From positions 1-34,069 of the forward strand of contig NZ_JALTON010000057.1 of assembly GCF_027000115.1 (NCBI RefSeq): a stretch of DNA of 34,069 nucleotides. The letters run 5' to 3'. Position numbers and translations under genes: made by a program. Each line of letters opens with the position of its first letter. Positions within the stretch are counted from its first letter, which is position 1. Origin of the DNA: Thiohalobacter sp. Lineage in GTDB: Bacteria; Pseudomonadota; Gammaproteobacteria; Thiohalobacterales; Thiohalobacteraceae. This document shows, one piece after another, positions 32,527 through 34,069 of the stretch. The notes beneath the pieces are model-generated. The model saw only the letters and a list, made by a program, of their open reading frames with translations, searched no databases and was not told the origin of the DNA.

Positions 32527-33270
32527 ATGAGGCAGGCGAGCATGAAATGGATCGTGGCCTGGACATGGTGGTTGCTGGCCGGGCCGGCACTGGCGGAGCG
32601 CTGGAGCGGGCGGCTGGCCTGGGTCGACATCACCCGCCTGTCGACCGGGGTCTCGGGCATGGTCGTGGCGGTTTCGGCGCGGCCGGGCGACCGGGTTGCC
32701 GAGGGCCAGTCGCTGCTGAAACTGGACCAGTCGGCCTTCCGGGCACGGTTGGCAGCGGCCGGCGCCGAGATCGAGAAGGCCGCGGCCGAGCGTGACGAGG
32801 CCAGGCGGGAGCTGGATCGCGCCCGCGAGCTGTTCGAGCGCACCCTGCTCTCGGTGCGCGAGCTGCAACTGGCCGAGATCGGTCTCGCGCGGGCCGAGGC
32901 GGCGCTGCGCGCGGCCCGTGCCCGGAAAGCCGCAGCCGAATTCGATCTGCGTTACAGTGAAATCCGCGCGCCCTTTGCCGGCCGCGTCGTGGCCCGCGAC
33001 GTGATGCCGGGCGAGCGGGTGTCGGTGGAGGAATGCCCGAGGCCATTGTTGATACTGGCGCGTGGTGACCGGATGGCGGTGCGTTTCGCGCCCGGCGACG
33101 CTGTGCCGGCGGTGGGCGACAGCCTGCGGGTGACGGCGGGCGGCGCGAGCTGGACGGCGCGGCTGGTGCGCATCGAGACCGGGGCCGACGGCGAGCCGCT
33201 CGCAGTCGCGGAATTCGAAACCGACCGCCCCTTGCAGGCCGGTCTGCCCGTCGAGGTGCGGCGCCCGTGA
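32527..33270 (+). CDS. HlyD/RND-type periplasmic adaptor subunit, short
   Basis: 247 residues, shorter than the usual 350-400 of RND adaptors. An N-terminal signal or anchor (IVAWTWWLLAGPALAE) leads to a lipoyl half-motif (GVSGMVVAVSARPGDRVAEGQSLLKLD), a helical hairpin (EKAAAERDEARRELDRARELFE to LARAEAALRAARARKAAAEFDL), the second lipoyl half (YSEIRAPFAGRVVARDVMPGERV) and a beta-barrel; the distal membrane-proximal domain seems missing. The ATG at 32527 has GAGGAA 7 bases upstream; an ATG at 32542 is possible. It directly follows the TolC gene and overlaps acyP. Confidence 0.85.
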   Translation: MRQASMKWIVAWTWWLLAGPALAERWSGRLAWVDITRLSTGVSGMVVAVSARPGDRVAEGQSLLKLDQSAFRARLAAAGAEIEKAAAERDEARRELDRARELFERTLLSVRELQLAEIGLARAEAALRAARARKAAAEFDLRYSEIRAPFAGRVVARDVMPGERVSVEECPRPLLILARGDRMAVRFAPGDAVPAVGDSLRVTAGGASWTARLVRIETGADGEPLAVAEFETDRPLQAGLPVEVRRP

Positions 33271-33539
33271 TCGTTGCCCGCCGTTGCCGGGTGACGGGCC
33301 GCGTGCAGGGGGTCTTCTATCGCGCCAGTACCCGCCGTCAGGCCGAGGCGCTGGGGGTGTCCGGTCATGCCATAAACCTGCCGGACGGCGCCGTCGAGGT
33401 GCTCGCCGTGGGTCCGGCCGAGGCCGTCGAGGCACTCTGCGCCTGGCTGTGGGCGGGGCCGCCTGCGGCGGCCGTGCGCGAGGTGCGTTGCGAGGTGCTG
33501 GACCCGCCGCCGGCGGTGCGGGGCTTTGCGACCGGCTGA
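33267..33539 (+). CDS. acyP: Acylphosphatase
   Basis: 90-residue cytosolic enzyme hydrolysing acyl phosphates such as carbamoyl or acetyl phosphate. The phosphate-binding GRVQGVFYRAST contains the catalytic Arg, and the Asn of INLPDGAVEV is the other catalytic residue. A GTG start overlaps the adaptor stop (GTGA), so it closes the operon. Its presence in an envelope operon is likely incidental, since acyP is often found as a small passenger gene. Confidence 0.93.
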   Translation: MIVARRCRVTGRVQGVFYRASTRRQAEALGVSGHAINLPDGAVEVLAVGPAEAVEALCAWLWAGPPAAAVREVRCEVLDPPPAVRGFATG

Positions 33540-33583
33540 AGCCGATCTTCCGCACTGCGCGGATGGTGACGCAGCTTGTGCAG

Positions 33584-33666
33584 GATGGGCAAAGGCGCGT
33601 AGCGACGTGCCCATCAGAGTTTTACCGCTGTTGTGATGGGCACGGCCCTCCGGGCCTTTACCCATC
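33584..33666. repeat. Two GATGGGCA hairpins downstream of acyP
   Basis: GATGGGCA (33584-33591) with TGCCCATC (33608-33615), and GATGGGCA (33635-33642) with TACCCATC (33659-33666), the second enclosing a GGCCCTCCGGGCC hairpin. The same 8-bp arms and an AGGATGGGCAAAG context occur at 415-446 and 598-629. They may act as transcript ends after acyP, but neither has a T tract. Confidence 0.65.
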
Positions 33667-33690
33667 GTACCCGCCCTCGCGAGGCCGGTC

Positions 33691-33954
33691 GCTAGCCCGC
33701 ATATTGCACCAGGTCGGAAGCGGGCGGGAGCCAACTTGTTGTCCTGGTACGTAATGAACCGGATTTTTTGCCCATGGCCCGGAGTACGATTTGTGCCCGC
33801 CCGCTTCCTGCTGCGGCCCTGGCGGATTTTCGCTCGGCCTCGGGGGTGCTTCACTCAAGCCGTAGCGACGGCTACGGCTTGAGCGCCAGCTCTCCCCGAG
33901 CCCGGCTGCAAATCCGCCATCATCCGCAGCCTCTGGTGCAATATGCGGGCTAGC
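33691..33954. mobile_element. 264-bp structured element with perfect 21-bp terminal inverted repeats (MITE-like)
   Basis: Bases 33691-33711 and 33934-33954 are perfect 21-bp inverted repeats that begin with the palindrome GCTAGC; CTAG could instead be a target duplication with the ends starting CCCGCATATTG. Inside are further inverted pairs: a perfect 13-bp pair (33716-33728 with 33796-33808); an imperfect ~26-bp pair (about 33821-33846 with 33894-33919); and in its loop a perfect 12-bp pair CTCAAGCCGTAG / CTACGGCTTGAG (33855-33866, 33873-33884). The whole could fold as a multi-arm structure. No coding frame of note. A deletion version lies at 7645-7720. Confidence 0.7.
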
Positions 33955-33972: not shown

Positions 33973-34069
33973 TGTTCACTCGGGGTTTACCCGGAGAATT
34001 GGAGGTGCAACCCAAACCAATGCTTCGAGGACCCCGAATGAACAGCCATAAAAATGCCCGATTAACCGT
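33973..34069 (+). mobile_element. Left end of an IS481-family insertion sequence (cut by window edge)
   Basis: The transposase start at 34038 follows a short leader that opens about TGTTCACTCGGGG (from 33973), a plausible terminal repeat beginning with the TGT of IS481 elements. The right end is outside the window, so the exact ends and target duplication cannot be confirmed. Confidence 0.6.
34038..34069 (+). CDS. IS481-family transposase, first 10 codons
   Basis: ATG at 34038 starts MNSHKNARLT and runs off the window. The opening M-N-x-H-K-N-A-R-L-T is highly characteristic of IS481-type DDE transposases. GGAGG lies about 24 bases upstream and CGAGGACCCCGA immediately upstream could serve as the ribosome site. 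Only this fragment is visible, so intactness is unknown. Confidence 0.7.
   Translation, partial: MNSHKNARLT

Follow-up and report, generated by a model that had tools for sequence, protein, structure and literature searches.

An IS1380-type non-autonomous element with a fold conserved on its minus strand in Gammaproteobacteria

MITEs are usually viewed as short-lived deletion scraps of insertion sequences. Among the described bacterial repeats that fold, REPIN and REP sequences are characterised in the accessible text of PMC3733652 as GTAG- or CGTC-tagged palindromes of 20-40 bp with a RAYT partner, while the MRSC-65-2 motif is portrayed, in the available portion of its source, as one long stem that contains a UYCCGG repeat, with more than 20,000 examples in diverse phyla (PMC11109978). 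In Coxiella burnetii, some copies of QMITE1 are transcribed as small RNA, and the accessible part of that report mentions no relatives in other genomes (PMC5896051). The element considered here lies in a 34,069-nucleotide stretch of Thiohalobacter sp. DNA, referred to as the window. Among the papers listed by the literature searches none described this element, and the 12-mer GCATATTGCACC occurred in none of the papers searched.

In the window, a non-autonomous IS1380-type element (MITE) of 254 bp forms the mobile unit, which spans 33696-33949, has no strand assigned and carries 17-bp perfect ends CCCGCATATTGCACCAG at 33696-33712 on the plus strand and, from an inverted-repeat search, at 33933-33949 on the minus strand. 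These boundaries rest on 115 elements having both ends, whose conserved sequence begins at the first C of CCCGCATATTGCACC, on the 4-bp duplications beside them and on the copies in the same genome. The inverted-repeat search gave perfect outer arms of 22 bp (33691-33712 / 33933-33954), where an earlier note on this DNA had counted 21; the outermost G/C pair extends the end repeats by chance. The three inner inverted pairs that the note had listed are also present, namely a left hairpin at 33716-33808 (no strand assigned) with perfect 13-bp arms at 33716-33728 / 33796-33808, which differs in sequence among lineages with its pairing retained, an imperfect 26-bp pair at 81% (33820-33845 / 33894-33919) and an innermost perfect pair of 13 bp rather than 12 (33854-33866 / 33871-33883). 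The fold of this copy is far beyond chance, since its folding energy is -170.6 kcal/mol, whereas 200 dinucleotide shuffles averaged -106.3 +/- 5.3 (z -12.2) and not one of them was as good. Inspection of ORFs and gene calls revealed no gene within the element, as the note had also held; a minus-strand ORF at 32952-33854 runs through part of it, yet also overlies plus-strand genes. A search of the whole window with 4227 Rfam models gave no match at curated score (the best weak match reached 26 bits against a cut-off of 59), and nothing above cut-off was found in 16 further loci. Two other repeats neighbour the element. A second, unrelated palindromic repeat (GATGGGCAAAGGCGCGTAGCG...) adjoins it at 33584-33666 and recurs at dozens more places in the same genome (81 matches, many being one place seen on both strands), and an imperfect inverted pair TGTTCACTCGGGG / CCCCGAATGAACA lies just downstream at 33973-34044.

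The sequence CTAG stands on the plus strand at both sides of the element (33692-33695 and 33950-33953), and the question of whether it represents a 4-bp target duplication can be answered from other copies. The flanking 4 bp are identical in 59 of the 115 elements (CTAG 51, ATAG 2, TTAA 2, CTAA 2, CAAG 1, CTTA 1). Shuffling of the right flanks yielded a mean of 0.83 non-CTAG identities and a maximum of 5 in 10,000, compared with the 8 observed. Since matched non-CTAG flanks exceed what shuffling produces, CTAG is a target duplication and the element measures 254 bp. In the remaining 56 elements the two flanks differ by at least one base, which could reflect decay of old copies. This duplication is the mark of DDE cut-and-paste, and the single-strand mobilisation that had been proposed for the element finds no support.

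Searches of genomes and databases, as proposed in the note, established that the element is a repeat. Counted in the query orientation, with self-complementary and end-only matches set aside, its own genome (2.65 Mb, 63 contigs) contains approximately 40 places, of which 24 are full length; identity to the window copy is as high as 98%. Long copies at 77-86% identity are found in two genomes of the same family (G008 and G003), and relatives occur in other genomes. The element was absent from the plasmids and phages searched (query 33695-33948, i.e. shifted by one base), its end sequence had no match in the viral contigs scanned, and a search for relatives using the neighbouring efflux gene found nothing. 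Several contigs of the own genome break within copies (G000 C55:1, C30:1, C36:1 and the end of C27), so that further copies or a helper may be missing from the assembly.

Elements of 245-262 bp in several genera have a common layout consisting of the ends, a variable left hairpin and an alignable right module. In the window this structured module, including the right end, occupies 33807-33949 on the minus strand and scores 141.5 bits with R1, a covariance model of the module in minus orientation. Applied at E <= 1e-4 with strict filters, at the cost of some weak matches, R1 located the module in 35 of 369 gammaproteobacterial genomes sampled, or 30 of 272 genera. R2, a model of the tip, matched 28 of the 369 genomes in the class sample and 3 of 398 in a phylum-wide sample, where the two genomes besides the own one gave weak matches but with clear IS1380-type ends. 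The end types vary by lineage (CCCGCATATTGCACC, CCCGCATTTCTCACC, CCCGAAAGTTGCACGAAG, CCCGAATATTTCATG, CCCGGATTTTTCATGA), and the module persists behind them. A second family in the own genome combines CCCGAAAGTTGCACGAAG ends with the same module (L286 400-544, L287 422-566 and L288 387-531, on G000 C37, C15 and C34). In another genome (G296, loci L305-L308) the tip motif sits on long single hairpins, some adjoining terminator-like sequence, and no IS1380-type ends are visible at these loci; one of them (L305) carries two tip hairpins in tandem. Forms of about 140-156 bp without the right hairpin were also encountered (L014 2433-2572, L175 1306-1445, L179 1165-1306, L182 1469-1624), three of the four showing a short CTGG repeat where the deletion was joined. 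A further module copy (L289 454-592 and beyond) is broken after GAGTGA by some 100 bp, itself palindromic-looking, which is perhaps a nested small element.

The ends connect the element with the IS1380 family. Public genomes contain a 19-mer end, CTAGCCCGCATATTGCACC, in at least 119 stretches, and among the matches listed (80 titles) all are Gammaproteobacteria, named or by group, save one 'Proteobacteria bacterium'. In Halomonas lysinitropha an IS1380 relic (L067), which has the same ends as the window copy, shows two such 19-mers 1.56 kb apart around pieces matching PF13701 (IS1380-type transposase). In ISMaq4 and ISPa33, both of them named IS1380 elements, CTAG stands at each end and the end repeats are related; the same holds for ISPosp7, whose repeats are less exact. 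The end CCCGCATATCTCACCA is common to an IS1380 element in G052 and an element in G298, a genome of the same genus. With ends resembling those of potential helpers, a CTAG-type target duplication and a short, multi-copy body without a transposase gene, both the assignment as an IS1380-type MITE and the 4-bp duplication are near certain. The shared ends suggest that an IS1380-family transposase moves the element in trans. The own genome gave no match to PF13701 or PF01609, i.e. no IS1380 transposase was found; perhaps its copies are stranded, or an assembly gap may hide the helper.

Ends that match IS1380 elements would also be expected if the element had recently arisen by deletion from an IS1380 element with this structure in its own non-coding region, an origin that we regard as very improbable. 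The interior of a parent IS, which is common in MITEs though not required, was sought with R1 in 21 loci with IS1380-type transposase hits, and only end fragments were recovered (E 0.019 and 0.13). Moreover, copies differ too much over some 30 genera to have arisen recently. Judged from these comparisons, the interior is not a deletion remnant of the ISs examined; for the combination of known IS ends with a simple deletion origin, against which the note had set its own reading, this leaves related ends around an unlike interior.

Selection on the fold of the interior is supported by covariation. Alignment A2 was made by sequence alone with pairing disregarded, and its structure is the one that RNAalifold itself chose. 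In A2, 94.7% of cells are paired against 78.6% after shuffling and changes on both sides occur in 25 of the 36 module pairs, with none of 500 shuffles as high; versions slid out of register had 23-39% paired. In this count, as in the other covariation counts, copies are related by descent and hence are not independent events. The number of further pair types was not above that of shuffles (378 of 500 as high). A second set was collected by a scored search for the tip, which returned 107 rows at a score of at least 17, and the 100 at 20 or above were used as A3. Here both sides change in 14 of 16 pairs, with 293 such cells against 87 shuffled, figures that are inflated by a score rewarding motif and pairing. 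In the same motif-selected set of 100 tips, the loop residues U, G, G, A opposite G, A, A are conserved in 98, 99, 97, 92 and 97, 99, 99, respectively, and GA/GA in 72. These UGGA/GAA and GA/GA loops are probably stacked sheared G.A pairs. The left hairpin, although variable, also retains its pairing, with a duplex energy of -20.7 kcal/mol for own arms against -12.8 for arms swapped across lineages, and in 25 of 29 elements the arms pair better than their cross-lineage mean. Three elements were too different for inclusion in alignment A1, namely L041 and one of L087, at 46-47% identity, and L093, at 56%. In the covariance check of the inner arms, compensatory change across genera was found rather than the uncompensated divergence that the note had named as counting against a structured element.

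Template correction is able to mimic covariation, and the element could be an ordinary MITE with a neutral filler interior, its palindromes having arisen by replication slippage and quasi-palindrome correction. Some observations would fit such events, as several copies in the own genome, including that of the window, have a loop partly swapped for the complement of the opposite arm, and the deletion forms of about 140 bp lack the right hairpin and carry CTGG at the joint. However, correction would erase mismatches, yet UGGA/GAA is kept in 92-99 and GA/GA in 72 of 100 tips while the neighbouring pairs covary, and the same module lies behind several end types in many families, which makes a neutral interior improbable. 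The window copy itself departs from the consensus at its tip hairpin (33845-33893, minus strand). Elsewhere the consensus is CU-GGA-NN-GA-stem-GA-NN-GAAG, with CUGGA-NN-GA opposite GA, whereas the 5' side in the window reads CUGGC-GC-UC opposite GA, a TC/GA state seen in 8 of 100 tips, five of them from the own genome. By this comparison the window copy has lost part of the conserved loop motif. As the tip consensus has mismatched loops, the perfect 13-bp inner hairpin is most simply derived, perhaps through quasi-palindrome correction.

The fold also has a strand. Consensus energy is -57.5 on the minus strand against -41.1 on the plus strand, and of 29 sequences the minus strand has the lower energy in 25 when RNA parameters are used and in 28 when DNA parameters are used. 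A plus-strand reading was dropped, as RNAalifold and single-sequence folding both favour the minus strand. Module pairs read on the minus strand include 49 G.U against 13 A.C. The end repeats, intended as a strand-neutral control, show no lean when unoriented, but when oriented they give 18 against 7, which is not significantly different from the module (p 0.58), so that the G.U lean is not confined to the module. Overall, the evidence for a conserved fold on one strand is strong. The earlier view that such deep nesting exceeds a simple MITE is borne out as far as the compensatory arms, an interior unlike the examined ISs with related ends, and the one-strand fold are concerned; the element is still a MITE.

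Whether the folded minus strand would act as RNA or as DNA is a separate matter, on which our first guess is RNA, against which several observations count. The commonest apical loop would be a UACG tetraloop on the plus strand, not the minus; UACG tetraloops are stable. No sigma-70-like promoter was seen in or beside the element. Gene context was scored with genes called by our own seven-state decoder, 13 of 124 elements at a locus edge being left unscored, and none of the 111 scored elements lies within a called gene. Where the two neighbouring genes run in the same direction, the folding strand is antisense to them in 45 cases and sense in 22 (p 0.007), so read-through mRNA would mostly carry the opposite strand. 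Such a bias argues against a simple function in the neighbours' mRNA, and suits a transcript of the element's own, a DNA role or selection against the fold in mRNA. It is one reason to consider that the minus strand acts as folded single-stranded DNA or a cruciform arm recognised in replication or transposition, for which the strand preference is equally strong with DNA parameters and in which sheared G.A pairs and G.T wobbles can form as well. Nevertheless, 4-bp duplications with IS1380-type ends point to double-stranded cut-and-paste, and the sole Y1-type transposase match in the own genome is weak (27.9 bits), so that a DNA role, the main alternative to RNA, is considered unlikely, if well short of negligible.

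The reading we favour, with moderate confidence, is that of a long-lived non-autonomous element, moved by IS1380 transposases, whose minus-strand fold is kept by selection and acts as RNA. An IS1380-family DDE transposase supplied in trans would bind the 17-bp ends and place the element in CTAG-like sites with duplication of 4 bp. Instead of leftover transposase DNA the interior has a structured module, its minus strand forming a long helix capped by a hairpin with the non-Watson-Crick loops UGGA/GAA and GA/GA, and a second hairpin, free to vary, adjoins this helix. Covariation supports the view that selection has preserved the fold through changes in sequence and even in the type of IS ends. 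The minus-strand RNA may then bind a host or transposase-related factor and so aid persistence of the element. A broader proposal, which we hold to be evenly balanced between true and false, is that structured RNA, or else strand-specific folded DNA, of a new class is the cargo of a long-lived non-autonomous lineage that has switched its type of IS1380 helper many times around the same UGGA/GAA and GA/GA core. An element that keeps its fold in some 30 genera and with several helper types must derive an advantage from it. It would offer a testable bacterial counterpart to the long-lived non-autonomous elements known from eukaryotes, along with a motif by which the binding partner could be sought.

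Compared with described systems, the element resembles each in part. Like REPINs and their RAYTs, as far as the sources available describe them, it is a non-autonomous hairpin element persisting long in bacterial genomes. However, at about 254 bp, with 4-bp target duplications and IS1380-type ends, it has neither the size nor the ends of REPIN or REP sequences, and apart from the one weak Y1_Tnp match nothing in the own genome points to a RAYT partner. MRSC-65-2, known here from the description in the accessible text, is likewise multi-copy, covarying and possibly active as DNA or RNA (PMC11109978), whereas the present element is branched and its tip model is rare in the phylum-wide sample. 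The module belongs to a branched element, though it does include arms with CCGG, and another motif of that collection could be this element (PMC11109978, going by the part available). QMITE1 is also a gammaproteobacterial MITE that folds strongly and, as its report has it in the portion accessible, differs in having 2-4 bp repeats of other composition (PMC5896051). TIMEs are similarly small, non-autonomous and stably folding but are Tn3-derived, and the accessible portion of their description claims no covariation for them (PMC4133298). The closest relation is to IS1380 insertion sequences (ISMaq4, ISPa33, ISPosp7) and MITEs, with which the element shares CCCG/CCTG-type ends beside CTAG and, with MITEs, a non-coding body in many intergenic copies; it differs from them in an interior that shares nothing with the ISs examined by R1 and in a fold that covaries across genera.
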